40,015 bases of DNA from an uncultured bacterium (GTDB lineage Bacteria > Bacillota_I > Bacilli_A > RF39 > UBA660), in contig CAMVPB010000009.1 in NCBI GenBank assembly GCA_947169285.1, positions 1 through 40,015 of the forward strand, in the 5' to 3' direction. Below the pieces are notes generated by a model. The model was not told the origin of the DNA and did not search any database. It saw only the letters and a program-made list of their open reading frames with translations. Shown here one piece after another: positions 1,568 to 32,037 of the stretch. A program made the position numbers and the translations under genes. Every line of letters starts with the position of its first letter. The stretch's first letter is position 1.

Positions 1568-1885
1568 CTAATTTTGATTATTCAAAATCAGTGTTTTTGA
1601 TTGGTCTTGTGAAATTGTTTCTCCACCAATTGGATTTGCATTAAATAATGCTGCATCATAACCACTTTTATAAGCTTTTTTAAGTTCCTCATTAACCTCT
1701 TCTTTAATTTGTGTGACCATATTCTCTGCAGCAGTCTTTCCGGCTACACTTATATCCAATGACTTTTCTAATTCTTCTATTTTTTCATTTTTTTCTTTTA
1801 TAACTTTTTCAAAACTTTGAATTTTAGAATTAATTAAATCGATTATTTCCCTACAAGAATCAGAAATATTACTTTTATCTACCAT
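1568..1885 (-). CDS. small coiled-coil protein of unknown function
   Basis: About 105 aa. Residues 15-55 are a Lys/Glu-rich heptad-like helix (EKVIKEKNEKIEELEKSL), followed by a second helix and a polar Gln/Asn-rich tail. There is no signal peptide or membrane segment. The frame is open to 1915, but the ATG at 1885 is preferred: it overlaps the upstream gene by only 11 bases and has GGAAATGG before it. The overlap suggests translational coupling with the 289-aa protein. I do not recognise a family. A structural or partner role for the upstream protein is only a guess. Confidence 0.6.
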   Translation of the reverse strand: MVDKSNISDSCREIIDLINSKIQSFEKVIKEKNEKIEELEKSLDISVAGKTAAENMVTQIKEEVNEELKKAYKSGYDAALFNANPIGGETISQDQSKTLILNNQN

Positions 1886-2744
1886 AAATACCATTTCCAT
1901 AATCTTGTTGTTCATATGGATTTTGACTACTAATTACCGTATTTTTAATGGCTTGCATATCGGTTCTTTTTTGTTCTACACTTGCATCATTAGCACGGCT
2001 TATCTCATTAAGTCCCTTATCAATCGCATCCATAAGTTTTTTACTACTATCTTCAACAGCTCTCAACTGATTATTCTTTTCGGTTTCAACTATCTTTTTA
2101 AATTCTTCTCTCCATCTTTCAATTACAACTGCAGTATTAGATTGTACTCTAGTATTGTCATGAACTTCAAATTCTTGAGGCGTTTGAAGAGGTTGCTCAA
2201 CCACTTCTCTTCTAACTTCTTGAGGATTCCTTCTAACTTCATAATCTATTGCAGCCGTAACTAAATCTGGCGTTTTAGTAGCTGTATTTTCATCATTTAC
2301 AAATTGAGAGATTGGCTTAATTTGTGGAATTGACTCTTCAAAAGATTGATTAGATTGACTAAAAGGTTGAGGCTGTTCAATAGAAACTTCTGGAATTATA
2401 TTATTAATTGGACTAACTGATGATTCAATCGGTGTATTACTAGTTACATCAAATCCAGCAAATCTGCTAACAGCTCTATTAAGTGGATTTGAAGAATCGG
2501 CATTTACAAGTTTTGCATCTGGGGCAATGTATGTAGATTCTTTTACCGGCCTTTCTTCACTTAAATATCCAGAATTAACTAGTGGTTGATTAGCATACAA
2601 AACCTCAATTGGCTCATCTAAACTTGATCTTTCCATTGCTTCTAAAGTTTTAGGGCTCACTAATAATGCTTTTAAATTTAAAGCTGCTTGCTTTAAAAAT
2701 GACACATTATTTGATTCTATTTTTCCTTTTTTTACATTTTTCAT
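1875..2744 (-). CDS. uncharacterised low-complexity/helical protein
   Basis: A 289-aa protein with no recognised domain. Residues 1-40 look helical. Residues 50-190 are low complexity, rich in Pro, Gln, Ser, Asn and Glu. Residues 195-265 form a charged, probably coiled-coil helix (IERWREEFKKIVETEKNN). The C-terminus ends in a Gly/Tyr-rich tail (YGNGIYGR). There is no signal sequence or TM helix. The start has AGGTGCAG about six bases upstream. It overlaps the next small coiled-coil gene and follows the DUF1292 gene by 14 bases, so these are probably one operon. Its place beside yunB and yutH makes a spore-coat or cytoplasmic scaffold role conceivable but unproven. Confidence 0.55.
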   Translation of the reverse strand: MKNVKKGKIESNNVSFLKQAALNLKALLVSPKTLEAMERSSLDEPIEVLYANQPLVNSGYLSEERPVKESTYIAPDAKLVNADSSNPLNRAVSRFAGFDVTSNTPIESSVSPINNIIPEVSIEQPQPFSQSNQSFEESIPQIKPISQFVNDENTATKTPDLVTAAIDYEVRRNPQEVRREVVEQPLQTPQEFEVHDNTRVQSNTAVVIERWREEFKKIVETEKNNQLRAVEDSSKKLMDAIDKGLNEISRANDASVEQKRTDMQAIKNTVISSQNPYEQQDYGNGIYGR

Positions 2745-2758
2745 AATTTCTGCACCTT

Positions 2759-3013
2759 CTATTCTTGTACTATTTCTTTCATAGCTTGTTTTACTTTATC
2801 CCAAAGAACATCATCTGATATTCCAATAAGTTCATATACGCCAGGGCTTGTTTCTAAAACTTCTGAAACATAAACTTTTGAAAGCCCTTCTCCATTTGTT
2901 TCATTTTTTGATAAAATAACAAAATCTTTATTAATATCAACTATTCCAAAAGATTTTACTAAATCAACTTCTTCCATTGTTCCGTCCATATTTTTTACAG
3001 TTATTTTTTTCAT
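2759..3013 (-). CDS. DUF1292-like small protein
   Basis: An 84-aa acidic protein with the layout of DUF1292 (YrzB-like) proteins: a short N-terminal beta segment, a hydrophobic FVILSKN core, a VYVSEVLE strand, and a C-terminal helix beginning near DDVLWDKV. The function of the family is unknown. A strong GAGGAGGG ribosome site lies seven bases before the ATG. The gene sits between the yutD-like gene and the 289-aa protein with short spacers, all leftward. Confidence 0.6.
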   Translation of the reverse strand: MKKITVKNMDGTMEEVDLVKSFGIVDINKDFVILSKNETNGEGLSKVYVSEVLETSPGVYELIGISDDVLWDKVKQAMKEIVQE

Positions 3014-3068
3014 AAACGCCCTCCTCTACTCTATAAAATAATTATATCACAAAAAAAAATACAATCAA

Positions 3069-3350
3069 TTATTTTTGTATTTTTTCTAGAATAAAATATT
3101 TGCAACCATAAGCACAATTTTCTTTCAAATACTTCTCCAAATTAGAAAAATCATTAATGCTATTAAAATTTTTGTTACCTTTTTTATTAAAACCTTTTAA
3201 TCTAAGTTTACTATAAGCAATATCACCAACTATATAATCATATCCATTAAAATAATCAGTAAATTTCTCCCTTAATTCTTCTTCATTAAATCCATCATTA
3301 TAATTTTTTATTAATCTATACTCATTATTTTCAAGTTCCAAAGTTTTCAT
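3069..3350 (-). CDS. yutD: YutD-like protein
   Basis: A 93-aa protein matching the YutD family along its whole length: a DGFNEEELREKF segment (residues 19-30), YDYIVGDIAYSKLRLKGF (38-55), and a C-terminal YGCKYFILEKI that contains the second Cys of the family's Cys-rich end. The biochemical role of YutD is unknown. In Bacillus its gene lies between yunB and yutH, and the same order is seen here with other genes inserted. The start is fixed by GGTGAT four bases before ATG. Confidence 0.8.
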   Translation of the reverse strand: MKTLELENNEYRLIKNYNDGFNEEELREKFTDYFNGYDYIVGDIAYSKLRLKGFNKKGNKNFNSINDFSNLEKYLKENCAYGCKYFILEKIQK

Positions 3351-3386
3351 AATATCACCAATGAAATTATATCATAAAATAAAATT

Positions 3387-4097
3387 TCACTCAATTAAAT
3401 CAGAAACAATATTTGAAGATGTAGAATACATACCACCATATACAGTTGGAATTTTCCCTTCTATTATTTTTTTAACAATTGGCAATTTATAATTAACTTT
3501 AATATTGTTTGTTGTATATGGTAAAAGTATATTTGTGTTTATATTAATATCTATACAGGTTTCTAACATTACATTGTTAATCCCATATTCTTTAATGTTC
3601 GTTTCAAGTTTTGCCTCAACATTACCAGACGTCATAACTTTAATAGGAATTTGAGGCCCAATCCAAGAAGAAGAACTTAAATTTGTTATTGCACCAAAAG
3701 GAATATAATAAATTGTATTATTATTTGAAAAAGTACTCTCTTCTATTGTTTTTAAATTTTTTATTAAATTAAGAGTTATATCATTTAACAAATTCTCTAT
3801 TTTTAAAGTATCATAGTCTATATATATAATTTCTTCTTTATTATTACTTATTGTATTTATAAAATCCTTATAATTAAATTCTTTTTTATTAAATTCATAT
3901 TTAATCGTTTTTACTATTAACATTTTAGTTTCCAATTCTATTTTATTTTTAGCATAATCCAATAATAAAGGTTTCGTATTTTTATTAAACAACACTAATA
4001 AAAATATACTATTAAAAAAAACAAGCATAGATATAATTACTACCTTGTTTTTTAATACCTTTTTTCTATTAGTTTTTAATTTTATTCTACTTTTCAC
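3387..4097 (-). CDS. yunB: sporulation protein YunB
   Basis: A 236-aa protein. The N-terminus is basic, residues 18-38 form one TM segment, and the rest lies outside the membrane. The C-terminal half carries the YunB-family signature: IPFGAITNLSSSSWIGPQIPIKV, GNVEAKLETNIKEYGINN and a PIVKKIIEGKIPTVYGG ending. In Bacillus subtilis YunB is produced in the mother cell under SigE and is needed for normal sporulation. The only start that keeps the basic N-terminus and full TM is a GTG at 4097. It has no Shine-Dalgarno, but TATAAT lies five bases upstream, so it may be read from its own short or absent leader or coupled to the preceding gene 15 bases away. The stop is TGA. Confidence 0.85.
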   Translation of the reverse strand: MKSRIKLKTNRKKVLKNKVVIISMLVFFNSIFLLVLFNKNTKPLLLDYAKNKIELETKMLIVKTIKYEFNKKEFNYKDFINTISNNKEEIIYIDYDTLKIENLLNDITLNLIKNLKTIEESTFSNNNTIYYIPFGAITNLSSSSWIGPQIPIKVMTSGNVEAKLETNIKEYGINNVMLETCIDININTNILLPYTTNNIKVNYKLPIVKKIIEGKIPTVYGGMYSTSSNIVSDLIE

Positions 4098-4112
4098 ACT
4101 AAATTATATTTA

Positions 4113-4976
4113 TTAAAATAAATTTAATACATATTTTAAAATCACAAATACTGTAGCTAAAGCCAACAGAATTAATATAAATATTCCTAATTTAACCATA
4201 TTGTTATTCTTTTTAACGTTTTTTTCTAATTCTTCAAAACCTTCAAAATCCTCTTTACTAAATGACATTGAATTAGTATAAAAAGATTTATCTAAAGTTT
4301 TTATTGCTGTATTTGTTTCATTAAGTTCTTTCAAATCCGATTCATTTTCATTTTTGCTATCTTTTATTTCTTTAATAGCTTTTGTTACAATTTCATCATT
4401 TTTTTCTTCGTTTATAGGTGCGGTTATTATTGTGTCATCATTTCCTGCTTTCAATTCTTCAAACAAATCTTTTTTATTTTTTGTGACTGTATTTATTAAA
4501 TCAACTAATGTTTTCTCATCAGTGTTTAATTCAATTGAATCTTTTTCTTCGGGCTTTTCTTCATCATACAATTTAATTTTACTTAAAATATCATATTGAG
4601 TATCTCTTAATTTTTTATGTTTTTCATCCTCGTAATAAACTTCTTTTTTTTCTTTAGCAAGTTCTAATACAGAATTAATATCATATATCTTTTCTTCGGC
4701 AAAGATATCCTTTTGAGGTAAATCATCTATATTATCTTTAACCACTACACTTCTACTTTGAGTTTCTATCTCATTATTGTTTTCAATGTAATTCTTTATC
4801 TTATTCAAATCTATTCTACTAGCACTCGTTTCTATGACTTTAACATTATCATTTGGCTTCATTTTTGAAAAATCAGACATACTTAAATCATTGTAAAGTT
4901 TTTGGTTTTTTGCAACTCTTGAAGGAACTTCACTATTTTCTTCTTCATACTTGTATCTTTCTACCCTAGAATTCAT
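4113..4976 (-). CDS. acidic, C-terminally membrane-anchored protein of unknown function
   Basis: About 287 aa. Residues 1-255 are highly charged (Glu/Lys/Asp/Asn-rich) and probably disordered or helical. A single hydrophobic helix at about 262-284 ends the protein, which is the layout of a tail-anchored cytosolic protein. There is no signal peptide. An in-frame TTG exists at 4988, but the ATG at 4976 is preferred because GGTG lies six bases before it. It is the first gene of the leftward yun/yut-like cluster, 15 bases before yunB. No family is recognised. An early, sporulation-linked membrane role would fit its position but is inference. Confidence 0.55.
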   Translation of the reverse strand: MNSRVERYKYEEENSEVPSRVAKNQKLYNDLSMSDFSKMKPNDNVKVIETSASRIDLNKIKNYIENNNEIETQSRSVVVKDNIDDLPQKDIFAEEKIYDINSVLELAKEKKEVYYEDEKHKKLRDTQYDILSKIKLYDEEKPEEKDSIELNTDEKTLVDLINTVTKNKKDLFEELKAGNDDTIITAPINEEKNDEIVTKAIKEIKDSKNENESDLKELNETNTAIKTLDKSFYTNSMSFSKEDFEGFEELEKNVKKNNNMVKLGIFILILLALATVFVILKYVLNLF

Positions 4977-13783: not shown

Positions 13784-13800
13784 AGTTGGCATAGCCAACT
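13784..13800 (-). terminator. terminator of the tagO-like gene
   Basis: The perfect stem AGTTGGC/GCCAACT with a three-base loop is followed on the minus strand by TTTTGTT. The hairpin touches the tagO stop codon. Confidence 0.75.
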
Positions 13801-14836
13801 ATTTTTTTCTTTCAAATATAATATTTGTTTTTAAGATTAAAAATAGCACTAAAAATAACAAAACTACATAGCATACTATCATTTCATATTGATATCCTAT
13901 TGCATAAAATATACTTGTTATTGAAAACAATGCATTAATTGAATATATTATTAATAATGTTTTAGTTTTTGATAAATTCATTTTTAATAATTGATGATGT
14001 AAATGTTCTTTATCAGGTTGCATAGCAGGTTTATGTTTTAGTTTTCTACGTATAATTGCAAATAAAGTGTCTAAAATAGGAATTGCAAGCAACAAAGATG
14101 GTATAATTAATGACGTTAATGTAAGGGTTTTAAAACCTATCAACATTATAATTGAAATCATTAATCCAATGAAAGTAGATCCAGCATCACCCATGTATAC
14201 TTTTGCTGGAGGAAAATTATGAACAAGATATCCTAATGTAGCACCTAGCATTATAATCGATATAGTTATATCTAAACCACCAAATCTATTTAATATAAAG
14301 CCTAAAACTGCAGTAGTTAAAAAATAAATTGAAGCTATTCCCCCAGAAAGTCCATCAAGCCCATCTATTAAATTAATTGCATTTATGATTCCAACAACAA
14401 GTAAAATTGTTACTAATGGAGATGCTATGCCAAATTTAATATTCAATCCAAACAAACTAGCATTATCAAGTCTTAGATTTCCATAAAACACTATTATTGA
14501 AGCAATAAGTAGATGAACAACAAACTTGTATTTAGCTGGGATTGGTTTTATATCATCAAATATTCCAAGAAGTAAAATCAAAAAAGATGCTATTAATATT
14601 GAAGACATAATATCACTTGGAGTTCCAAATAATATATATCCAAGCAAAAATGTTAAAAATATTCCAACCCCGCCAAGTAGTGGCACTGGAGTTTTTTGTA
14701 TTTTTCTTTCATTTGGAACATCATAAACTCCTAAATATATTGCAACTTTTTTCATAAGCCAAACAAGCAATATTGAACTTATAAAGCATACAAATAATAT
14801 TAATAAAGCATTATGACCATTAACAACTAATTTCAT
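13799..14836 (-). CDS. tagO: undecaprenyl-phosphate N-acetylglucosaminyl-1-phosphate transferase (TagO/WecA family)
   Basis: A 345-aa polytopic enzyme with 10-11 TM helices. It has the family motifs in order: GGVGIF near residue 55, GIFDDIKPIP (91-100), NLIDGLDGLSGG (155-166), MGDAGSTFIG (215-224) and the HIP-like EHLHHQL (277-283). It moves GlcNAc-1-phosphate from UDP-GlcNAc onto undecaprenyl phosphate, the committed step for wall teichoic acid or related glycopolymers. The start has AGGTGTGAC directly before ATG. It is divergent from the docked autolysin operon. An LCP-family protein that could attach the finished polymer is encoded at 22960-24846. Confidence 0.93.
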   Translation of the reverse strand: MKLVVNGHNALLILFVCFISSILLVWLMKKVAIYLGVYDVPNERKIQKTPVPLLGGVGIFLTFLLGYILFGTPSDIMSSILIASFLILLLGIFDDIKPIPAKYKFVVHLLIASIIVFYGNLRLDNASLFGLNIKFGIASPLVTILLVVGIINAINLIDGLDGLSGGIASIYFLTTAVLGFILNRFGGLDITISIIMLGATLGYLVHNFPPAKVYMGDAGSTFIGLMISIIMLIGFKTLTLTSLIIPSLLLAIPILDTLFAIIRRKLKHKPAMQPDKEHLHHQLLKMNLSKTKTLLIIYSINALFSITSIFYAIGYQYEMIVCYVVLLFLVLFLILKTNIIFERKK

Positions 14837-14984: not shown

Positions 14985-17171
14985 ATGAGAAATAGAAAAT
15001 TAATTTTTATAACATTTGCTGTATTAGTTTCATTTGCTTTTTTGCCATATTTAAATGCTCAAACTGAAGCATATGTTTCTACATCTGCTCTTAGGGTTAG
15101 AGAAAAACCAACAACCGATTCAAACACTTTAATTAAAATATATAATGGTGAGACAATCACTGTGATAGATGAAAATAAAATTGCTGGAACAGGATGTAAT
15201 GATGGATGGTATAAAATTGAAAAGAATTCTATCCAAGGATATGTGTGCAGTACTTTTATAAAATTAGGTAACATAAATTCAAGTTATAACACCGCTGATT
15301 TTGATGCTAGGGTTTATGCAAATTCAGTTTCTGTTAGAAGTTATGCTTCATCAAGTGCTAGCAAAATTACAAATTTATTAAATGGAACAAACCTTACTAT
15401 ATTAGATACATTGCCTTCTGGAAATGGATGTTATGATTCATGGTATAAAGTAAATTTTCATAACAATAAAATTGGATACATATGTGGAACATACGTAATA
15501 AAAAAAGAAAATATGATTGCAAACGATACTGAATATGAAACTATTCTTTCCAATCTTGGATTTCCTAATAGTTATATTCCATATTTAGTTTCATTACATA
15601 AAAAACATTCTAATTGGATATTTAAACCAATACAAACCAATTTGAAATGGGACAATGTTATAAGTGGTGAAAGCGGTAAGAATTACATAGAGAACCCTTC
15701 TGAAGAAGCATATAGAACTTCTTCTACTCCAGCGGAAGGAAGAAGCTGGTTTGAAGCAACTGATGGAGTCAATGCTTTCTTTATAGACCCTAGAAATTTT
15801 TTGACAGAAAAATTTATATTTATGTTTGAAAATTTACAATTTGATGAAGAAACTCAAACATTAGAAATAGTAAAATCCGTTTTTGGATCAAGCTATCTAG
15901 CAACAGATGAATATTCAAACTATTTTATTGAGGCGGGTAAAAAATTTAACGTTAGTCCAGTGCATCTTGCAGCTAGAGTTGTTCAAGAAGGTGGTGCAAA
16001 TAGCAATTATGCTGCAATAACAGGAACTTCTACTCAAACTTATAGAGGACATTCTCTTACTGGATTTTACAACTACTATAATATTGGTGCATATGCCGAT
16101 GCATATACATCAAGCCCAGTTACAAGAGGCCTTGCATATGCAGCAGGATTAGTTGGTGGAGATGGTAAATCTTTAGGTAGGCCATGGAACACAAGAGAGA
16201 AAGCAATTTATGGTGGTGCAGAATTTATCAGTAATGGTTATATTGGAAGTGGTCAATATACATTATACTTTGAAAAATTTAATACTTCCCCTACTTCTAA
16301 TTATAGTAGATTCACACACCAATATATGACAAATGTACAAGCTCCAACCAGTGAAGGAAGTAATTTGTTTAATTCATACAATTCAAATGGGTTATTAGAT
16401 AACGCTTATGTATTTGCTATTCCAATTTACAATAATATGCCAGATGTTGTTTCCCTACCCGCAATCGGAGATATAGTAAATACATTGAGTTCAATTTCTA
16501 TAAATGACAATAAACTTTCAGAATTTGATCCAGATGTTTTAAGTTACACATACTTTGTAACAAAAGATACTGAGGAGGTTGAAATAAAAGCTACCCCTAC
16601 AAGTGCTGTTAGTGTAGTTGAAGGGGTTGGCAAAATAGGACTTGATAGTGATGAAACGATTCTTACAATAAAAGTTACTTCTCAAAATGGCAATATAAAA
16701 ATATATTCAGTAACAGTTAAAAAAGTTGATGACACTAAAACAATTGAAGAAATATTTAATAATTTAGAAGTTAAATTATCAAATAATTATATAAAAAATA
16801 TTACAAAAGATACAAAAGTTAATGATTTAATTACAAATATAAAAAGAAATAGTCCTTCTGCAATTATAACAATAACAAATTCATCAGGTTCCTTGCTTGC
16901 TTCAACAGATAAGTTAGCAACTGGACAAATATTAAATATAAAAACCGCTAATAATGAAAATAGAGATCTAGTATTAATTGTTAAAGGAGATACCAGTGGT
17001 GATGGAAATGTAACAATATTAGATTTATTACAAATTCAAAAGCACATATTAAATTCAAAAAAATTATCTAATGCTTACTTTGAAGCGGGAGATACCAGTG
17101 GTGATGGCAAAATAACAATATTAGATTTATTACAAGTTCAAAAACATTTAGTTGAAGGAAAAAAATTATAG
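14985..17171 (+). CDS. secreted SH3-SH3-glucosaminidase (LytD-type) with C-terminal type I dockerin
   Basis: A 728-aa exported protein. A signal peptide covers residues 1-25. Two bacterial SH3 domains follow (about 28-95 and 110-175), each with a Cys pair (GTGC...GYVC; GNGC...GYIC) that could form a disulfide. Residues about 185-480 are an endo-beta-N-acetylglucosaminidase of the LytD/GH73 type: FIDPRNFLTEKFIFMFENL from 264, SPVHLAARVVQEGG with probable catalytic E335, and a YNYYNIGAY segment. A cadherin-like beta-sandwich (about 499-580) and a short domain come next. The end is a type I dockerin with two Ca-binding repeats, DTSGDGxxTILDLLQxQKH, at D669 and D703. It should cleave peptidoglycan glycan strands outside the cell. 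Ten bases separate it from the cohesin gene, whose ribosome site overlaps its stop. Confidence 0.93.
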   Translation: MRNRKLIFITFAVLVSFAFLPYLNAQTEAYVSTSALRVREKPTTDSNTLIKIYNGETITVIDENKIAGTGCNDGWYKIEKNSIQGYVCSTFIKLGNINSSYNTADFDARVYANSVSVRSYASSSASKITNLLNGTNLTILDTLPSGNGCYDSWYKVNFHNNKIGYICGTYVIKKENMIANDTEYETILSNLGFPNSYIPYLVSLHKKHSNWIFKPIQTNLKWDNVISGESGKNYIENPSEEAYRTSSTPAEGRSWFEATDGVNAFFIDPRNFLTEKFIFMFENLQFDEETQTLEIVKSVFGSSYLATDEYSNYFIEAGKKFNVSPVHLAARVVQEGGANSNYAAITGTSTQTYRGHSLTGFYNYYNIGAYADAYTSSPVTRGLAYAAGLVGGDGKSLGRPWNTREKAIYGGAEFISNGYIGSGQYTLYFEKFNTSPTSNYSRFTHQYMTNVQAPTSEGSNLFNSYNSNGLLDNAYVFAIPIYNNMPDVVSLPAIGDIVNTLSSISINDNKLSEFDPDVLSYTYFVTKDTEEVEIKATPTSAVSVVEGVGKIGLDSDETILTIKVTSQNGNIKIYSVTVKKVDDTKTIEEIFNNLEVKLSNNYIKNITKDTKVNDLITNIKRNSPSAIITITNSSGSLLASTDKLATGQILNIKTANNENRDLVLIVKGDTSGDGNVTILDLLQIQKHILNSKKLSNAYFEAGDTSGDGKITILDLLQVQKHLVEGKKL

Positions 17172-17181
17172 GAGGAATTAA

Positions 17182-18630
17182 ATGAAAAAATTTTTAAAAT
17201 TTATATCAGCTTTATTAGTAATATGTTTATTTATTCCAGGTTTAAAAGCAGCTTCTGCTACATTTAAAACCACATCCAATAGATCAAGCGTTGTAGTTGG
17301 AAATACATTTACAGTTACAGTCAAAGTATCATCTTCTTCAGTGCTTGGTAGTTGGGAATATACTATTAATTATGATGGTTCAATTATTCAAATGATCAGT
17401 GGTAAAAAAGCAGTTGCTGATCCAGGAAATGGAAGTCAAAAATCTCAAACTTATACATACACTTTTAAAGCAATTAAAGCTGGCAAATCAAATATATCTG
17501 TAAAATCATATGCAGCTTATGGTTGGGATGAAAAAGCGCTTAGTTGTTCCGCTTCTGGAACATCTGTTAAAGTTATTACAAAAGCAGAATTACAAGCTTC
17601 TTACTCAAAAGACAACAATTTAAAAAGTTTATCTGTTGAAGGAGCAAATATATCCCCTACTTTTTCAAAAGACATAGTAGATTACAAAGTCGAATTAGGA
17701 GCTAATACAACTTCAATATCCATCAAAGCTTCTCCCAACGATTCAAAAGCACACGTGTCAGGAACTGGAACATTTGAAGTTACTGAGGGAGATAATAAAT
17801 TTCAAATAATCGTTACTGCCGAAAATGGTTCAACAAAAACATATAATTTAATAGCAAGTGTTGTGGATCCTAACCCAATAACCGTTAAGGACACCAAAGG
17901 AAATGAATTAGTTGTAGTTAAAAGAAAGGCATTGCTTACATCACCAGAATCATATAAAGAAACTACTGTTTTCGTTAACGATCAGGAAGTCCCCGCTTTT
18001 ACAAGTGAAATAACTAATTTTATATTAGTGGGTTTAAAAAATAATGAAGGCAAAATTAACTTATATATTTATGATAAAGATAAAAACACATTTACTAAAT
18101 ATACAGAATTAAAAATGAATGAATTAGTTTTATTACCTATAAAAAGCAACAATTATAAAGATTATATAAATACTACTATTAAAATTAATGATGAGGAAAT
18201 AGAAGCATATAAACATAGTAATGATTCTAAATTTGCGATTATATATGCATTAGATACTCAAAACGGAGAAAAGAATTATTACAAATATGATTTAAGGAAT
18301 AATACAGTTACATTTCTTGACGAAGAAATAGAAAAGAATTTAGAAAGCAAATTAAAAACATATTCATATATAATTATAGGTTTACTTGCTGAAACATTTA
18401 TCTTATTTATAATACTAATTCTTCTTTTAAGAAATAAAGCATTACATAACAAAAGAAAAAAAATGAAATTACAAGAAGCAAAAGAAAAATACGAAAATGA
18501 AAAGAAAGAAAATACTATAATTGAAGAAAATAATAATGAATTTAAAAGAGATGTAGAAAAAAATAATTCAAAAAAAGAAGAAAAAAAAGATGATATTAAA
18601 AATAAGAATTCAAAAAAGAAGAAAAAATAA
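17182..18630 (+). CDS. membrane-anchored cohesin-domain protein
   Basis: A 482-aa protein. A signal peptide covers residues 1-25. A cohesin domain (about 26-150) starts SSVVVGNTFTVTVKVSSSS and continues with GSWEYTINYDGSIIQMISG and a YTYTFKAIKAGKSNISV strand pair. A cadherin-like beta-sandwich (about 158-230) has the same plan as the one in the preceding enzyme. About 150 residues of unrecognised extracellular sequence follow, then one TM helix (about 393-416) and a long Lys/Glu/Asn tail in the cytosol. Cohesins bind dockerins in a calcium-dependent way, so the obvious partner is the dockerin enzyme encoded just upstream. AGGAGG lies seven bases before ATG and overlaps the upstream stop, indicating translational coupling. 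It contains only one cohesin, not a multi-cohesin scaffold. Confidence 0.9.
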   Translation: MKKFLKFISALLVICLFIPGLKAASATFKTTSNRSSVVVGNTFTVTVKVSSSSVLGSWEYTINYDGSIIQMISGKKAVADPGNGSQKSQTYTYTFKAIKAGKSNISVKSYAAYGWDEKALSCSASGTSVKVITKAELQASYSKDNNLKSLSVEGANISPTFSKDIVDYKVELGANTTSISIKASPNDSKAHVSGTGTFEVTEGDNKFQIIVTAENGSTKTYNLIASVVDPNPITVKDTKGNELVVVKRKALLTSPESYKETTVFVNDQEVPAFTSEITNFILVGLKNNEGKINLYIYDKDKNTFTKYTELKMNELVLLPIKSNNYKDYINTTIKINDEEIEAYKHSNDSKFAIIYALDTQNGEKNYYKYDLRNNTVTFLDEEIEKNLESKLKTYSYIIIGLLAETFILFIILILLLRNKALHNKRKKMKLQEAKEKYENEKKENTIIEENNNEFKRDVEKNNSKKEEKKDDIKNKNSKKKKK

Positions 18631-18707: not shown

Positions 18708-18781
18708 GCAGGTGTAGTTTAATGGTAGAACTTCAGCCTTCCAAGCTGCTAACGTGGGTCCGATTCCCATCACCTGCTCCA
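18708..18781 (+). tRNA. tRNA-Gly (UCC)
   Basis: The acceptor GCAGGTG/CACCTGC, the D arm, the anticodon loop CTTCCAA (anticodon TCC), the T arm GGGTCCGATTCCC and an encoded CCA (18779-18781) are present. The outermost anticodon-stem pair is mismatched. The 3' half has an inverted near-copy at 18831-18847. Confidence 0.95.
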
Positions 18782-18830: not shown

Positions 18831-18847
18831 CGGACCCACATTAGCAG
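18831..18847 (-). repeat. inverted fragment of the tRNA-Gly 3' half
   Basis: Read on the minus strand, 17 bases match tRNA-Gly 18746-18762 with one mismatch, and the short CAAG flank also recurs after one inserted base. The copy is inverted, 68 bases from the parent segment. It encodes the last codons and stop of the leftward frameshifted gene that begins at 19588. Confidence 0.6.
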
Positions 18848-19588
18848 TCTTGAGAAGAATTCTTTAAATACATATTTAATAATATATCATCAAACAAACT
18901 ATACCACTTTACTTGAACACAAAACCTTTTCTTTTCATATAAAGGATTATAATTCAAATTTCTCGCTTGCGGTTGGCAAAATAAACTGCTGAAATGGATA
19001 CCAGTAGAATACTCATTAATTTTGTATTTTAATACTTTTATAATATCAGCTTTTGTTATCCATAAATAATCATTCGGTATTCCCAAACATATTGCATCAA
19101 TACCATATTTAGAATTAGTTCCAGTAATAACAAATCTTTCTATTGCCTTTTCTACAATTTTGTTATTATTAACTCTTTTATTAAATAAATCAATATCATT
19201 TTGATGCGATTTCTTATATTCTTCACTACTCACACGATTTTTTCCTTTTCCATCAAAGGTTCCATCACCAAAGTGATAATACAAATATGTGTCAATAATG
19301 TCTAATGAAATGCCATTATTTTCCAAAAAATAGCAAAAACTACTAAGGGGTTCTACATGTACCGAATTTTTGCTCCCGCTTTTTATGCTTATTCCCTTTA
19401 TTATTCCGTTTTATCATTATATCTGTTTTTTGCTTGTAATGATTTTTCCATGCTTTAACAACATTACCATCATTAATATTATTATATATTGCATGTATTA
19501 AATCATATGAATTTGGATCTAATTCTGATATTTTTTTTCCATTAAACATCAGCACAAAATCATATTCATTTTGTTTTCCACTATTCAT
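18841..19588 (-). pseudogene. frameshifted PD-(D/E)XK-nuclease-like gene
   Basis: Two leftward frames, 19588-19343 (81 codons) and 19326-18841 (161 codons from a TTG), are one gene broken by an extra base. Deleting one A of the AAAA run at 19409-19412 joins them without a stop into about 248 codons. The join gives ...TDIMINGIIKGISIKSG and then SKNSVHVEP. That repaired segment has the Asp...hydrophobic-x-hydrophobic-Lys spacing seen around PD-(D/E)XK nuclease sites. The rest is basic and aromatic without TM segments and has a Cys/Pro-rich stretch (SLFCQPQARN). A good AAGGAG site precedes the start at 19588. The 3' end runs into the inverted tRNA-Gly fragment. It is either a real pseudogene or a homopolymer sequencing error. 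The nuclease assignment is tentative. Confidence 0.65.
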
Positions 19589-19892
19589 TTATTTCTCCTT
19601 TCCATTCCATAATATAAAATATCAAAAAAACTATCAAACACATTATTATTCAAAAATATAAAGCATTAATAATTAAAAAAATAAATTATTATATATATTC
19701 TTAAATATTTAATATGTTATGTCAAAATTATTTTATCATTTGATTTTAATGCTTTTTAAAATTTTTAGAAATGATGTATAATTAGACATACCAAAAACAA
19801 AAATCATCGAAATTCGGTGATTTTTTTAATTCATTTTATATTTATAATTTATTATTTTTAATAAAGTATAGTGTTTTAATATTACACTTTTT
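19589..19892. other. 304-base gene-free AT-rich stretch
   Basis: No supported gene. It holds the ribosome site and presumed promoter of the leftward frameshifted gene near 19589-19620, a lone rightward TATAAT near 19777, and a terminator hairpin at 19801-19823. Confidence 0.6.
19793..19828. terminator. bidirectional terminator after the 86-aa gene
   Basis: The stem AAATCATCG/CGGTGATTT (one T-G pair) with loop AAATT has T-runs on both strands (TTTTTTT rightward, TTTTTGTTTTT on the minus strand). On the minus strand it follows the gene ending at 19893. Confidence 0.75.
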
Positions 19893-20153
19893 TTAAAATA
19901 AACTATATATTAATTCTAAAAAACTATTGAAATTATCTGGTACGCTATTTCCTATATATAAATCGTATTGTTTATCTTTCTCTATAACACCAACAATCAA
20001 TATTTTATCTTTTTTTATTCTATTATAATAACTTTTCCATTCTCTTATTATTCTAAAAAAGATGTTTACAAACTTTTCATAATCTTTTAATGATAAATTA
20101 CTATATTTTTTATTTATAGAAACATTTTTTTTATTGCTGTCAATAATTATCAT
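19893..20153 (-). CDS. small protein of unknown function
   Basis: An 86-aa protein with no signal or TM segment: a short beta start (MIIIDSNKKN), an aromatic basic helix (IFFRIIREWKSYYNRIKKDK), then two beta strands and a final hydrophobic helix. No family is recognised. It starts 29 bases after the 420-aa HEIIH protein, in the same direction, and is probably its operon partner. No Shine-Dalgarno is visible. A small immunity or accessory protein for the larger gene is possible but unsupported by motifs. Confidence 0.55.
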   Translation of the reverse strand: MIIIDSNKKNVSINKKYSNLSLKDYEKFVNIFFRIIREWKSYYNRIKKDKILIVGVIEKDKQYDLYIGNSVPDNFNSFLELIYSLF

Positions 20154-20182
20154 TTCATAGAAATAATTATTTAATTAAGTCT

Positions 20183-21445
20183 TTAAACATGTATGTTTTC
20201 TCCTTTTTCGAATGATTCCATATTAGCAATTAATTTTGAAATATCATTGTTAACATCATTTATAATATGCTTATTCTTTGAATAAAAATGCGCATGTTTA
20301 GAAAATATATTGTTAAGTTCTTCACTAAAAACTTCCCAAGACTCTCCAAAAAAATCATATAATTTTTCTGGTACGCCATTAATTGCACAATTAGAAAATA
20401 TTATTTCGTATTTATCAAAGAAATCTCCCACTAAAGGAAATAAATTCTCATAAGCTGACGATCCTAAAAGTGTAAAATTATTAGGATTATCAAACATGAA
20501 TATTCCTCTTTTGTGCAATTCGTTTGTCATTTTTATTGCAAGCTTTTGCGTCCTTATTTCGTTTGCTATACTATTTGTGTCATCTAACATTGCTATTCCG
20601 ACACTATTTTCATCTGTTTCAACTTTATGAATAATTTCATGCATAGCACTAACATCTAATGCCTCACATCCTATATTTACCATATGAGATATTGGAACTC
20701 TAATGATATGGTAATCTTTAACACTTATTGAATTTTTAGAAGAGACAGTCATAGCGACTGGATTGGTATTAAAAATAAGTTTACTAATATTTTCAAAAGA
20801 CAGTTTAATTCCCAATTCTCTTTCAGCTCTATTATATATACTTTTTCCATATTCAGAATGTTTTGCTACACTATTTCTATAATTTATTTGTAGTGTCTTT
20901 ATAAATTTAACAATTTCATCCACACTACTTGAAGATAATCTTTTAATCTTTATATTTCCAAAATGAACAACCATCTTAAAACAAGCTTGATCATGTAGTA
21001 TATTATCCTTGATCGATTGTGGGGTATCAGCATTATTTAATAAATTAATACTATTTGTACTAAATGCATCAATATATCCAGTATTAAAGTTATCATCCAT
21101 AAACAATGTTATCAAATTATCTTCATCAATATTTTCTATTAAAAAATTCTGTTTTAAATATTCTAAAAGCAACTTTCTATTTTCTTTTTTGCACTCTTCA
21201 CTTACTCTTGCAAATTCTTCATATTTTAATTCTATTAATTGTTTTTTTTGATTATCGAACTCATCACTATGCATTTTTAAGAATTTATAATCATCCTCTG
21301 GAGTACTAGAAAAATCAAAAAACACATTTCCTAATCTTTTTTTAATAATTTCAGAATACTCTTGTCCATAATAATTTATTAACATTTCAATTAAAAGATT
21401 TTTGTTTTTATCAAAAATTTCATTTATATTTGCTAAATCAATCAT
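20183..21445 (-). CDS. zincin-like protein with HEIIH motif, unknown function
   Basis: A 420-aa, largely helical soluble protein without signal peptide. Residues 269-273 are HEIIH, the zinc-binding HExxH of metallopeptidases. N295-E296 (NEIRTQ), 23 residues later, is placed and phrased like the third ligand of gluzincins (NExxx). The HExxH is preceded by small and hydrophobic residues (DVSAM), as usual for an active helix. Residues 1-110 are charged helices and residues 330-400 a second helical region rich in Phe and Asn. AGGTGAT lies four bases before ATG. It heads a two-gene unit in an accessory-looking island. It could be a cytosolic peptidase or a toxin-like enzyme. No named family is recognised. 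Confidence 0.6.
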   Translation of the reverse strand: MIDLANINEIFDKNKNLLIEMLINYYGQEYSEIIKKRLGNVFFDFSSTPEDDYKFLKMHSDEFDNQKKQLIELKYEEFARVSEECKKENRKLLLEYLKQNFLIENIDEDNLITLFMDDNFNTGYIDAFSTNSINLLNNADTPQSIKDNILHDQACFKMVVHFGNIKIKRLSSSSVDEIVKFIKTLQINYRNSVAKHSEYGKSIYNRAERELGIKLSFENISKLIFNTNPVAMTVSSKNSISVKDYHIIRVPISHMVNIGCEALDVSAMHEIIHKVETDENSVGIAMLDDTNSIANEIRTQKLAIKMTNELHKRGIFMFDNPNNFTLLGSSAYENLFPLVGDFFDKYEIIFSNCAINGVPEKLYDFFGESWEVFSEELNNIFSKHAHFYSKNKHIINDVNNDISKLIANMESFEKGENIHV

Positions 21446-22944: not shown

Positions 22945-22973
22945 TAATAAAAAAACTTCTTATTCAGAAGTTT
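22945..22973 (-). terminator. terminator of the LCP-family gene
   Basis: The minus-strand stem AAACTTCT/AGAAGTTT is followed by a T-run. The LCP stop codon overlaps the loop. Confidence 0.8.
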
Positions 22974-24846
22974 CCTGTTCTTGAGGTTTCTCTTCAACCT
23001 TTTTATTAGCGTAATATAAATTTAATGTATTCCCCGCTTTTACAACTAGTGTTCTTTCATGCATTGATTGACTAACAAAATTCATTCCACTTATATTAGA
23101 TAATTCTTCATTCGTATCATAATTTATAAAATGAATTGTTATTCCGTTTTTATTTGCCCAATCTTTTGCTTGAGAATAACTATATTTTGAAAAATTAGGA
23201 ACAGTGGGTAACTTTGATTCACTATAAGTTTTATTACCTACTAATTCTTGTTCATAAGGTTTATTAACTGAAAAAGAAAATTCTTTTACAATATTTGGTT
23301 TAGTTATTTCAAGATTTTGTTTCATTAAATTAACAATGTCATTCATACTTCCTTTATAGTTAAAGAAAGCATATCTATAGCCACTTACATTAGGCTCCCA
23401 AACATTCATATCATAACCTCTTAAAAATGTTTTCTGAATATTAACAAGTTCTAAATCTTTAGCACCAATTAAATTTTCTAAAACCTCATAGAATGAAAAC
23501 ATTTCATTAGTAGATAAATCAGTATCTATATTTTTACTTATTACATCTAATACTTCTAATAATTTGTTGACATTCCTAATCTCTTTAACCTTTTTTAATA
23601 TTGCCTCTATAACTAACTGTTGATTTTTGCCTCTAATAAAATCGTTTCTTGGTCCTTCAGTAAAAGTAGGGCAATATTTTTTCATTAAAGAATATTCACT
23701 TGCTGAATGCCTATTTCTAGATAAAGCTAAAGCTTGTTCACCATTTAATACTTGAAGCCCTTTTTGATTTACATAAACTGTTTTATCTCCCCAAGAACGT
23801 GTACTATTTTGTTCACAAAAAGCATATGGAACATCAACTTCTACTCCACCTAAAGCATCGACAAGATCCACAACTCCTTTAAAATTGATTTTTATATAAT
23901 AATCAATATTTAATCCTGTAATATTCTCAACTGTTTTTTTAACACATTTTGCTCCACCATAAGCAGATGTATTTATCTTTTGAAATTGTCTATTACCACA
24001 AGCAATCTTAGCATAAGTATCTCTTGGTATTGAAAACATTGTAGCATTTAAAGTTTTCGGATTAAATGTAACTATCATTATAGTATCTCCATTAAATGCA
24101 GCATTTACATCAGATACAGAATCAACACCTAATATTAAGAATGTAAAAGGATTTGTTAAAGTTTTGCCTTCATTGATATTAGACTCTTTTTCAATAGATT
24201 TATTTTCTAGCTTTTCTGAATATTCAATTACCTCTATTGCTTTCTCAGATAAATCAGCATATTCTTCAAAATTAATAAATAAGTCCTTATAATTACTATT
24301 TATAAATATTAAATCAATTTCTTTATTATACAAGGCATCCATCAAATCAATAATGCTGTTATACTTGATAATACTATTATTTTCATTTAATAAATTCTTT
24401 TCTATAACCTTTTTAGGCAATAAGTATAATTCAATATCTTCTTCATCATCGACTATACCTATTTTAGTTTGCTGCACATCTTTAATAGTTTTATATTTAT
24501 CATCAAATGTTAATAAAACTGTTTTATACATTATTTCTTCTTTTTTAAAAAAGTTTAATTTTGAATGAACGCCATTTAACAAATAAATGACTGCGCCATA
24601 AATACCACATATAATTACTACAAGTATACAAGATACTAAAAATCTTTTTGGTCTATTCAACCTATAATTTTTGTTTACTATATATCCAATAAATAAAGAT
24701 ATATATGACACTAAAAATATTAAAAGATTAATATATAATTTTTTTAATCCTGTAAATAGAACTAAAGAGTAAATTAAAAAACCGCTTGTAATAACAAGTA
24801 TAACCAAAAGAATAATTTGAATTATTTTATACATCTTATTTTTCAT
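22960..24846 (-). CDS. LytR-CpsA-Psr family protein with SBP-like insert and PASTA tail
   Basis: About 628 aa. Four TM helices cover residues 1-100. A region of about 120 residues follows that resembles one lobe of a periplasmic-binding protein (KIGIVDDEEDIELYLL, then IIDLMDALYNKEIDLIFINS). The LCP domain spans about 230-430: FLILGVDS, GDTIMIVTFNPKT, SIPRDTY with the catalytic Arg-Asp, and GPRNDFIRGKNQQL. A single PASTA-like domain lies near 555-615, then an acidic Glu-rich tail. LCP enzymes move teichoic-acid-type polymers from undecaprenyl carriers to peptidoglycan, and the PASTA part would help bind the wall. The start at 24846 has no ribosome site but lies six bases after a consensus promoter, suggesting a leaderless mRNA. 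Confidence 0.9.
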   Translation of the reverse strand: MKNKMYKIIQIILLVILVITSGFLIYSLVLFTGLKKLYINLLIFLVSYISLFIGYIVNKNYRLNRPKRFLVSCILVVIICGIYGAVIYLLNGVHSKLNFFKKEEIMYKTVLLTFDDKYKTIKDVQQTKIGIVDDEEDIELYLLPKKVIEKNLLNENNSIIKYNSIIDLMDALYNKEIDLIFINSNYKDLFINFEEYADLSEKAIEVIEYSEKLENKSIEKESNINEGKTLTNPFTFLILGVDSVSDVNAAFNGDTIMIVTFNPKTLNATMFSIPRDTYAKIACGNRQFQKINTSAYGGAKCVKKTVENITGLNIDYYIKINFKGVVDLVDALGGVEVDVPYAFCEQNSTRSWGDKTVYVNQKGLQVLNGEQALALSRNRHSASEYSLMKKYCPTFTEGPRNDFIRGKNQQLVIEAILKKVKEIRNVNKLLEVLDVISKNIDTDLSTNEMFSFYEVLENLIGAKDLELVNIQKTFLRGYDMNVWEPNVSGYRYAFFNYKGSMNDIVNLMKQNLEITKPNIVKEFSFSVNKPYEQELVGNKTYSESKLPTVPNFSKYSYSQAKDWANKNGITIHFINYDTNEELSNISGMNFVSQSMHERTLVVKAGNTLNLYYANKKVEEKPQEQETSE

Positions 24847-24852
24847 AATTAG

Positions 24853-24881
24853 ATTATACAATATTTATCATTTTTTCTCAA
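24853..24881 (-). promoter_or_regulatory. promoter giving a leaderless LCP transcript
   Basis: On the minus strand TTGAGA (24876-24881), a 17-base spacer and TATAAT (24853-24858) are followed by only six bases before the ATG (24846). Transcription should start at or within a base or two of the ATG. Confidence 0.7.
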
Positions 24882-27539: not shown

Positions 27540-28364
27540 TTATAATACATTTTTATTTCTAGAATAATGAAACATATATTGAATAATTAATCCAGAATAT
27601 TCTCCATATTTTTTAACTGCTTCTTTTTTAATTATAGATTGATTTTCTTCATTAAATAGTTTTTTTACCCATGTATCTATTGGAAAAGTATCTAATTTAC
27701 CGTATCCAAATAAAAGAATACATGATGCAACTTTCATTCCTATTCCTTTTACATCCATTAATTTATTCATTGCTTCTTCACTTGATAAATTATTTATTTC
27801 ATTTAAGTAATTACTATCTTTTTTTATTTCATTTAAAGCATTAATAATATATTTACTTCTAAAACCCACTTTACATTCTTTAAGGCTTTCATCAGTAATA
27901 TCTTTTAATTCATCAAATGTTGGAAATAAATAGTATTCTTTATTATTAAATAAAATTTTTTTACCATATTTTCTAGATAGCTTTTCTATAGATGAAGATA
28001 TATTTTTAACGCTATTATTTTGACTTATTATATAACTTATTAACATTTCAAAATCTGGTTGATTTAAAATTTTATAACCTTTTGAGTATTCAACAATATT
28101 TTTTATATTGGGATTTTTACGCAATACTTGATTATTTATTTTATTATAGTCTCTATTTAAATCTAAATATTCTATTACTTTTTCTTCAAGATTTATTTCA
28201 TCATTGGAATTAAGTATTAAATATTCATTTTCTTCTTTAATATTGACTATTCTATCATTTAAAATAACTGTAAAACTATTATCAAACTCTTCTTTTATTC
28301 TAAATGCTTGGCCACTTAATAAAGTGGCCTTTAAATTAATATCATTCTTCAGTATTTTCTTCAT
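27540..28364 (-). CDS. 8-oxoguanine DNA glycosylase (OGG1-type HhH-GPD)
   Basis: A 274-aa enzyme. Residues 1-90 form the OGG N-terminal domain, starting with LKATLLSGQAFRIKEE, where OGG enzymes have GQ(A/S)FRW. The HhH-GPD domain spans about 95-265: ISQNNSVKNI near 113, the hairpin VKGIGMKVAS (205-214) with catalytic K211, and FPIDTWVKK with catalytic D230. It would excise oxidised guanine by base excision repair with lyase activity. There is no Fe-S cluster motif at the C-terminus. The start lies inside the end of the LtaS-like gene (23-base overlap), so translation is coupled. Confidence 0.88.
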   Translation of the reverse strand: MKKILKNDINLKATLLSGQAFRIKEEFDNSFTVILNDRIVNIKEENEYLILNSNDEINLEEKVIEYLDLNRDYNKINNQVLRKNPNIKNIVEYSKGYKILNQPDFEMLISYIISQNNSVKNISSSIEKLSRKYGKKILFNNKEYYLFPTFDELKDITDESLKECKVGFRSKYIINALNEIKKDSNYLNEINNLSSEEAMNKLMDVKGIGMKVASCILLFGYGKLDTFPIDTWVKKLFNEENQSIIKKEAVKKYGEYSGLIIQYMFHYSRNKNVL

Positions 28365-30414
28365 GTTTATCTAATCCTAAATGTTTATAATAGTCATTTG
28401 ATAATATTAAGTTTGACATTCTAAATCTTCCATTTGCTTTAGCGGTTACTTCTTCAACATATCCTTCAGGTACTTCGACAGGTATTTTTTCAACTTCCCC
28501 TGCTTCATTTGTTACTTCTTTAGTAAATGGTTTAAATACACCTTTTATAGAATTGTATGTTCCCTTATCAGTTATCCAACTTCTATCACTTAATATTACT
28601 AATCCTTCTTCATCATCAGATAACATATCTCTTCCCATAAATAATCTGGAATCAAAGTTAAGACCAAATAAATTATAAACAGTTGGTATTATATCAATAC
28701 TTGTGGTATATTTAGTAACCTCTATTGGTTCAGTAATCGCACTATTATAAAGTATAAAAGTTGTTCTATAGTTTTCAAATTTGTCAGTTCTATCATATCC
28801 TAAAATTTTACTCATTTCTTTTCTTTCATTTTTAAGACCATAAGGATAATGATCTGGAGATATAACTATTACTGTGTCATCTAAAATTCCATATTCTTCT
28901 AATTTTTGTAATAAATATTCCATGGCTTTATCAAATTCCATATTACATCCAATGTAAGCTTTTACTGCTTCACTATATGGAAGATTTTTCACTTCATTCC
29001 AATGTTTATATGCCATTGAATTACCCATTTTACTGTAATTTAAATGCCCACTTACAGTCATGTAATAAGTTGCAAAATGTTGTATTTCTTTTTCTTCTAT
29101 TGGGGTTTCTTCAATCATACTTGAAACAGTTTCATCTATAGTATTTTTATTTAAATTATAAGCATAATCATCAAGAGTGACTTTCATCATATCCAAGTCA
29201 CTTTCAGGCCATATCTTGCAATTCATTCTTTTTTCTAGTCCGTTCCCACATCCTATATATGTAAATCCCATATTAGGATGAGATAAATTTCTATCATAAT
29301 ATTTATAAGCATTATTGTGATATGCCATTGTTTTATAACCTATTGATTTAAATATATTCCCTATAGCAAATGGCTGATATGTAAAACTACTTCTATACAT
29401 ACTCCATACACCCTCTTTAGGAATTAATCCAGTCATATTTAAATATTCTCCATCAGATGTACTTACTGGATACAATGGCTGATAGAAATTTTTAAATACA
29501 AATGAATTATTTGCAAGTTTATACAAAGTTGGTGTTAATTCTTCGTTAACCGCAAGAGTATCAAAGCCTTCTGCTGTTATAAATATTAAATTTTTATCTT
29601 TAAACATTCCTGTATAATCATTTTGCTTAGTAGGTGTTACATTTTTAAAATATTCATGCATACTTTTAATAGTTTCATTTGTTTCACTCTCTAGTAATTC
29701 ATCAAAGTCTATGTCTAATATGTTGTATTTTACTTCAGGAATTATTTCTACTGGTTTAATATCTTCTACTTCAGTTTTTTCTTCAAAACCAAATATAAAT
29801 CTAACCAAATCATATCTTGTCATAGTAAGAAGTCCAACCTTTTTAGCCGTTATCATTGGAGCATGTGTTTTAGCATACAATGTATTCAAAGAATAAGAGC
29901 CTTTATTATCTAATTTAATAACTAACAAAGTCGATAAATAAAACATAATAGTTATTATTAAATATATCATAGCTTTTCTAAAACCTAATTTTTTAAAGCT
30001 AAATATCTTTTTACTAAATATTAAAAATAATATAAATGGAATTAACATTATCAATAAAACATACCAAATACCAGCCATTATCTTAACTATATCTTTAACA
30101 AAAGCCATTACTTGACCAGTTCCATTCATAAGTGAGAAGAATGAAAACATTGATTGATAAAAATTAAAATATACTGCTTGTGCCATGAAAATAATGGTAA
30201 TTATAAATGATAAAATTGTAACTAGAATTTTATTAAGTTTTTCATTAAATAGATTAGTAATCAAATAAAAGAATGTAGCGATTGGAATGCTAAATAAAAC
30301 TAAATACAATAAATCTAAGTTTAAAAATGTATTAAATATAAATATTCTATACATTATTTCTAAATAAATAATTAAAAAACCATACCAAAATAAATTTCTA
30401 ATTTTGTTTTTCAT
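28342..30414 (-). CDS. LTA synthase family sulfatase-fold protein (first copy)
   Basis: A 690-aa protein with about five N-terminal TM helices (1-170) and a large extracellular sulfatase-like domain (about 270-640). Key features are LIFITAEGFD with the metal-binding Glu, nucleophile T319 in STSDGEY, SGHLNY, SPDHYPYG and a KNERKEMSKILG-like section. The family transfers glycerol-phosphate from phosphatidylglycerol to build or prime lipoteichoic acid. GGGTGATAAA directly precedes ATG. The stop is TGA, overlapping the glycosylase gene. A second family member lies at 32016-33956, so roles may be split, for example primase and polymerase. Confidence 0.9.
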   Translation of the reverse strand: MKNKIRNLFWYGFLIIYLEIMYRIFIFNTFLNLDLLYLVLFSIPIATFFYLITNLFNEKLNKILVTILSFIITIIFMAQAVYFNFYQSMFSFFSLMNGTGQVMAFVKDIVKIMAGIWYVLLIMLIPFILFLIFSKKIFSFKKLGFRKAMIYLIITIMFYLSTLLVIKLDNKGSYSLNTLYAKTHAPMITAKKVGLLTMTRYDLVRFIFGFEEKTEVEDIKPVEIIPEVKYNILDIDFDELLESETNETIKSMHEYFKNVTPTKQNDYTGMFKDKNLIFITAEGFDTLAVNEELTPTLYKLANNSFVFKNFYQPLYPVSTSDGEYLNMTGLIPKEGVWSMYRSSFTYQPFAIGNIFKSIGYKTMAYHNNAYKYYDRNLSHPNMGFTYIGCGNGLEKRMNCKIWPESDLDMMKVTLDDYAYNLNKNTIDETVSSMIEETPIEEKEIQHFATYYMTVSGHLNYSKMGNSMAYKHWNEVKNLPYSEAVKAYIGCNMEFDKAMEYLLQKLEEYGILDDTVIVISPDHYPYGLKNERKEMSKILGYDRTDKFENYRTTFILYNSAITEPIEVTKYTTSIDIIPTVYNLFGLNFDSRLFMGRDMLSDDEEGLVILSDRSWITDKGTYNSIKGVFKPFTKEVTNEAGEVEKIPVEVPEGYVEEVTAKANGRFRMSNLILSNDYYKHLGLDKHEENTEE

Positions 30415-32012: not shown

Positions 32013-32037
32013 GCACTACTTATTAGTGCTTATTTTT
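32005..32037. terminator. bidirectional terminator between GT2 and second LtaS-like gene
   Basis: The stem AATAAGCACTA/TAGTGCTTATT with loop CTTAT is flanked by A and T runs. The GT2 stop codon lies in the stem. Confidence 0.88.

Follow-up and report, generated by a model that had tools for sequence, protein, structure and literature searches.

The gene pair and its products

The window analysed here is a stretch of 40,015 nucleotides from an uncultured bacterium (GTDB lineage Bacteria; Bacillota_I; Bacilli_A; RF39; UBA660; contig CAMVPB010000009.1). It carries two neighbouring genes, one for a secreted peptidoglycan hydrolase that ends in a dockerin and one for a membrane protein that begins with a cohesin, and the relationship between their products is the subject of this work. 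A first-pass annotation made from the sequence had described the two genes as coupled, and both open reading frames (ORFs) were found at the coordinates it gave, on the same strand, 11 bp apart. The ribosome-binding site of gene 2 overlaps the stop codon of gene 1, and the two genes are probably transcribed together. The features of the pair are as follows.

14985-17171, + strand: gene 1, secreted GH73 (SagB-like) glucosaminidase with a C-terminal dockerin, 728 amino acids (aa) (Pfam, NCBIfam and PDB profile matches)
14985-15059, + strand: signal peptide, residues 1-25, cut between LNA and Q (predicted by eye)
15084-15260, + strand: SH3_3 domain 1, residues 34-92 (Pfam hmmscan)
15312-15497, + strand: SH3_3 domain 2, residues approx. 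110-171 (Pfam hmmscan, match in two stretches)
15531-16454, + strand: GH73 catalytic region, residues about 183-490, with Glu335 at 15987-15989 (NCBIfam, PDB, alignment)
16485-16721, + strand: cadherin-like domain PF12733, residues 501-579 (Pfam hmmscan, E 1.5e-6)
16752-16970, + strand: conserved pre-dockerin module, residues 590-662, ~70 aa
16983-17150, + strand: type I dockerin with two calcium-loop repeats, residues 667-722 (Pfam PF00404)
17170-17176, + strand: ribosome-binding site AGGAGGA of gene 2, over the gene 1 stop codon
17182-18630, + strand: gene 2, cohesin membrane protein, 482 aa
17251-17592, + strand: cohesin domain, residues about 24-137 (Pfam genome search, profile search, hhalign, AlphaFold fold)
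17620-17850, + strand: cadherin-like domain PF12733, residues 147-223 (Pfam hmmscan, E 5.1e-9)
17863-18357, + strand: conserved juxtamembrane domain, residues 228-392
18370-18426, + strand: transmembrane helix, residues 397-415, mean hydropathy 3.0
18427-18627, + strand: charged cytosolic tail, residues 416-482 (67 aa), variable in relatives

The description of the gene 1 product as a secreted glucosaminidase with two SH3 domains and a two-repeat type I dockerin held. The SH3_3 domains were detected by Pfam hmmscan with an E value of 1.8e-22; the same search did not report the catalytic domain. The NCBIfam SagB model NF052642 matched residues 295-466 (E 1.1e-11), a partial match whose 44.5 bits lie far under the full-length cut-off of 425, and the PDB matches to the catalytic region comprised staphylococcal autolysin glucosaminidases, the N-acetylglucosaminidase 5wqw and 6u0o chain B. 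The presumed catalytic residue, Glu335, was conserved in 52 of 52 order-level rows. As judged from its sequence, the enzyme has the GH73 domain and the presumed catalytic glutamate of a SagB-type GH73 glucosaminidase. The dockerin match (Dockerin_1) was clear (E 1.1e-12, 48.4 bits against a cut-off of 22.9). Both of its loops are intact and follow the pattern D-x-S-x-D-G-x-x-x-x-x-D, starting at D669 (GDTSGDGNVTILD) and D703 (GDTSGDGKITILD); each shows the D-x-[NSD]-x-D-G start and the D12 end of an F-hand loop, and the two repeats are identical to each other at 17 of 22 positions.

The module ahead of the dockerin, which the first-pass annotation did not include, had neither a Pfam match nor a meaningful PDB match when both were searched. 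In 49 of 51 order-level enzymes it lies 1-13 residues (most often 5) ahead of the dockerin, and all 65 ORFs in which the module was found also contain a dockerin. It also accompanies the dockerin across differing catalytic domains: proteins of the GH25, amidase and M6-peptidase kinds have it, as do those of Vescimonas, whereas a search of the L140-L143 dockerin proteins did not find it. The module may be a partner of the dockerin, similar to an X module.

The signal peptide (by eye), cohesin, cadherin-like domain, single transmembrane helix and charged tail (25 K/R and 14 D/E) that had been attributed to the gene 2 product were all located in its sequence. The juxtamembrane domain was an addition to that description; no meaningful PDB match and no solved relative was found for it. 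Among the Pfam families that had been proposed for a check, PF00404 was clear, PF12733 was present in both proteins, and PF00963 (cohesin) was marginal: the genome search gave it 26.4 bits, the cut-off being 24.1. Pfam hmmscan of the gene 2 product did not list PF00963, which by itself would argue against a cohesin; the other lines of evidence (the genome search, a profile search, hhalign and the predicted fold) all favour one. A profile of 28 orthologous domains, built without the PF00963-selected reference cohesins, retrieved mainly solved cohesins from the PDB (best E 5e-7). The hhalign comparison of the window-type domain with other PF00963 domains of the order gave a probability of 98%; neighbouring domains of the same protein scored about 1% or less. 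The AlphaFold model of the domain (pLDDT 94.6) matched the cohesin modules of Clostridium perfringens best (Z 12.7-13.1; for 2jh2, Z 13.0 and 2.2 Å over 110 residues), and most of the top rows were cohesins. Marginal in Pfam, the assignment of this domain as a cohesin is otherwise firm on profile comparison and predicted fold.

Conservation of the pair in related genomes

The source genome (981 kb, ~91% complete) yielded a single dockerin and a single cohesin match in genome searches. This agrees with the dedicated one-enzyme, one-cohesin pair proposed earlier, as do the significance of the cohesin match and the proximity of the two genes in relatives. Among 193 genomes of the order, 143 carried both the cohesin gene and a dockerin, 1 the cohesin gene only, 16 a dockerin only and 33 neither (Fisher p 6e-24, not corrected for phylogeny). 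Exactly one dockerin was present in 91 of the 159 dockerin-positive genomes, and some relatives carry up to 12, including M6-peptidase, GH25, papain-like and LRR proteins. The search for the gene pair in relatives, suggested with the first description, placed a dockerin gene directly upstream in 51 of 52 order-level loci of the primary type (gap of -27 to 31 bp), that is, the homologue loci of the order with a fetched upstream region, the near relative L103 included. A set of 44 cohesin-protein matches had first been scored as non-adjacent; most of these were fetched, and the dockerin gene adjoined in all but one, locus L123, which is the sole exception among the 52.

The L123 enzyme (1618-4266, - strand; genome G025) is a 39% identical orthologue that stops right after the catalytic domain. 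The cadherin-like domain, the pre-dockerin module and the dockerin have been lost, and several SH3 repeats gained. The genome kept its cohesin gene, and no dockerin match was found anywhere in it. This case, a single draft genome, fits an exchange between the dock and wall-binding repeats.

A second type of locus (L135-L139) has the cohesin membrane gene just upstream of a gene for an M6-peptidase with the pre-dockerin module and a dockerin. In other Bacilli families, the same membrane protein is encoded downstream of a dockerin protein whose catalytic domain is mostly a PF01832 glucosaminidase, with GH25 (L090), Amidase_2 (L087) and a metallo-beta-lactamase fold (L085) also represented. The L085 protein (L085:7136-8356), directly upstream of the cohesin membrane gene, is no obvious wall hydrolase. 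The juxtamembrane domain was confined to three Bacilli families in a phylum-level sample. Outside the Bacilli, a search of a plasmid collection revealed the pair in a cultured Clostridia isolate of human source, Vescimonas fastidiosa MM35, where WP_212821509.1 and WP_212821511.1 are encoded in the same gene order, 10 bp apart, and show 32-38% and 27% identity to the window proteins. Since this is a cultured isolate, the system is open to experiment. Other arrangements were also seen. At L140 (G168:C7:5000-24900), papain-like, LRR and Big_2 proteins with dockerins are clustered, and one of them combines a cohesin match with two dockerins; in its genome the window-type cohesin membrane protein had no strong counterpart. 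In many relatives, PF00963 also matches proteins of about 2,200-4,000 aa, which are apparently unrelated to the pair.

Co-divergence of the dockerin and the docking domain

Pairwise inter-domain distances were compared across 51 loci, with partial correlations controlling for the cadherin-like, juxtamembrane and catalytic domains. The distances of the dockerin followed those of the N-terminal docking domain of the membrane protein (r 0.74; partial 0.68, p 0.0005, a significance that partial Mantel tests on related sequences inflate). The partial correlations of the dockerin with the control domains were -0.20 (cadherin-like), 0.18 (juxtamembrane) and 0.06 (catalytic). The contrast with control domains within the same genes is a stronger argument than the p value. 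The dockerin-docking partial correlation was 0.67 with the pre-dockerin module as an extra control, and the module itself gave 0.10 against the docking domain. The co-divergence was specific to the dockerin and the docking domain and points to binding between them. The cadherin-like domain shared by the two proteins, to which the first-pass annotation had drawn attention, is indeed present in both; however, it is a common repeat and its divergence did not track that of the dockerin.

The docking domains fell into type A, the compact cohesin of the window, and types B1 and B2, of about 105 aa. Type A was paired with DLLxxQK dockerins (47), B1 with DYxxIKN (15) and B2 with DLLxxRQ (14), which amounted to 76 matched pairs, 1 mismatched pair (G010) and 12 with an unclassed dockerin; in two of these 12 the docking domain was unclassed too. 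These motif classes were set after the data had been seen; the distance-based test is independent of them. Five genera (g3, g18, g19, g58 and g63) each contained two docking types with matched dockerins, and genus g57 did so with the exception of one unclassed dockerin. In hhalign comparisons, B1/B2 were homologous to type A (97%) and scored 89% and 37% against the reference cohesins. A fold search with the B1 model ranked general Ig-like sandwiches ahead of cohesins, which scored Z 9.4. B1 and B2 could be either strongly shortened cohesins or a related domain that took over; because their dockerins match by type, the data suggest that they still act as receptors.

Proposed mechanism and alternative explanations

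We consider it probable that the pair serves to dock a peptidoglycan hydrolase at the membrane, in a dedicated one-to-one arrangement. The glucosaminidase would be secreted, and its C-terminal dockerin would bind, directly and in a calcium-dependent manner, the lone cohesin, which forms the outer tip of its neighbour, a type I membrane protein. A spacer that sets the distance between enzyme and membrane may be formed by the cadherin-like and juxtamembrane domains. The SagB-like GH73 enzyme would be kept in the inner zone of the wall, the site at which new glycan strands appear, and would trim or release strands there rather than diffusing off or lysing the cell; its SH3 domains probably still contact the wall. 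The dock had earlier been proposed to replace wall-binding repeats. Because the window enzyme retains two SH3_3 domains, the dock would rather supplement wall binding, although the exchange at L123 agrees with the original idea. A wider proposal, to which we give somewhat less than even weight, is that of a general membrane docking system of gut Bacilli and Clostridia, in which a conserved stalk would carry a fast-evolving docking domain (a cohesin or one of two shorter Ig-like types as new dockerin receptors). Its matched clients, ending in the pre-dockerin module and a dockerin, would bring GH73, GH25 and amidase enzymes to the membrane in mutually exclusive specificity classes, serving them as SpdC serves SagB.

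The pair could instead belong to a reduced cellulosome or other multi-enzyme display, in which the membrane cohesin is a general receptor and the glucosaminidase one client among many. Such a display would account for the relatives rich in dockerins and for the second dockerin hydrolase close to the pair at L083, but the source genome and the majority of the dockerin-positive genomes of the order carry a single dockerin, the M6-peptidase dockerin proteins adjoin a cohesin gene of their own and every dockerin type fits the docking type of its neighbour, which makes this explanation improbable. We regard as very unlikely that the membrane protein is a transmembrane sensor relaying the docked state to the cytosol through its charged tail, a link that the first-pass annotation had also raised. 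The single helix, the length and charge of the tail in the window and the conserved juxtamembrane domain would suit a sensor, yet among relatives the length of the tail varies between 5 and 159 aa and is often just 7-15 aa; cytosolic signalling is disfavoured because the tail is not conserved, and none of the window genes that recur beside the pair resembles a signalling gene. Finally, the two genes might be linked without binding, as members of an envelope operon whose domains merely look like cohesin and dockerin. The recurrence of envelope genes beside the pair (a WecA-like transferase and an LCP protein, described below) and the genome that lost the dockerin and kept the cohesin would be expected under this explanation, whereas dockerin divergence that tracks the docking domain but none of the remaining domains of the two proteins, together with the co-switching of types within genera, would not, and we hold it to be equally improbable as the sensor.

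Three observations weigh against the one-to-one dock. The dockerin and the docking domain lie within about 500 bp of each other, and joint transfer can add to the correlation between them. In many relatives the docking domain is shorter and Ig-like, and its predicted fold does not clearly identify it as a cohesin. The cohesin gene of G025 outlasts the dockerin and, since that genome lacks any dockerin match, the membrane protein may have another use.

Relation to known systems

Cohesin-dockerin pairs are known mainly for the digestion of outside polymers. The window pair resembles the type I system of clostridial cellulosomes (e.g., C. thermocellum, 1ohz) in the C-terminal two-loop type I dockerin on the enzyme and in the cohesin fold. 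It differs in having one cohesin and one client, and in placing the cohesin on a membrane protein where cellulosomes have a multi-cohesin scaffoldin. Neither window protein showed a cellulose-binding module, and the enzyme probably acts on the wall of its own cell. Neither a scaffoldin with several cohesins nor a large set of dockerin enzymes was found in the source genome at its ~91% completeness. The nearest folds, the non-cellulosomal cohesins of C. perfringens (GH84C/NagJ 2jh2 and 2w1n; GH33 2vo8), are carried by secreted glycan-degrading enzymes, whereas here the cohesin lies on a membrane anchor with a peptidoglycan hydrolase as the proposed client. A pairwise, non-scaffold use of cohesin and dockerin in glycoside hydrolases has been considered before (PMC12997984).

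The membrane protein SpdC of S. aureus acts as a scaffold for SagB in the cleavage of glycan strands (PMC10581084). The proposed dock is similar to SagB-SpdC (6u0o) in that a SagB-type GH73 glucosaminidase would be positioned by a membrane protein. In contrast to SpdC, a CAAX-protease-like integral membrane protein, the partner in the window has a single transmembrane helix and a cohesin ectodomain; the linked partner is not of the SpdC type, and no search was made for SpdC homologues in other parts of the genome. Wall hydrolases with dockerins have been described in Ruminococcus champanellensis in a cellulosome context, with the idea of a "lyticome" (PMC6403190). Those hydrolases join a cellulosome scaffoldin, unlike the window enzyme, whose neighbouring gene encodes a dedicated membrane cohesin. 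No membrane cohesin paired with a wall hydrolase was found in our literature searches, which covered open-licence papers only. If the proposed dock is real, it would bring the cohesin-dockerin interaction into core cell-wall biology, in organisms with genomes of about 1 Mb, and would provide a calcium-dependent means of keeping growth hydrolases where strands emerge. The co-switching types are candidate orthogonal cohesin-dockerin pairs for protein engineering, including unusually small receptors.

Genomic surroundings

The recurrent neighbours of the pair are a WecA/TagO-like transferase (13799-14836, - strand) and a 633-aa LytR-CpsA-Psr (LCP) protein (22960-24861, - strand). Homologues of each occurred in 10 of the 20 neighbourhoods fetched, and the pair therefore tends toward an envelope region. 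A tRNA-Gly gene (18708-18781) lies just 3' of the pair. After it come a partial tRNA-like stretch in inverted orientation (~18832-18855) and ORFs, two of them without a Pfam match (18841-21445). The stretch 3' of the tRNA-Gly gene is possibly an old insertion; a search allowing up to 3 mismatches returned the tRNA itself as the sole match. Two large sulfatase-family proteins, possibly LTA-synthase-like, are also encoded in the window (28342-30414 and 32016-33956, both - strand).

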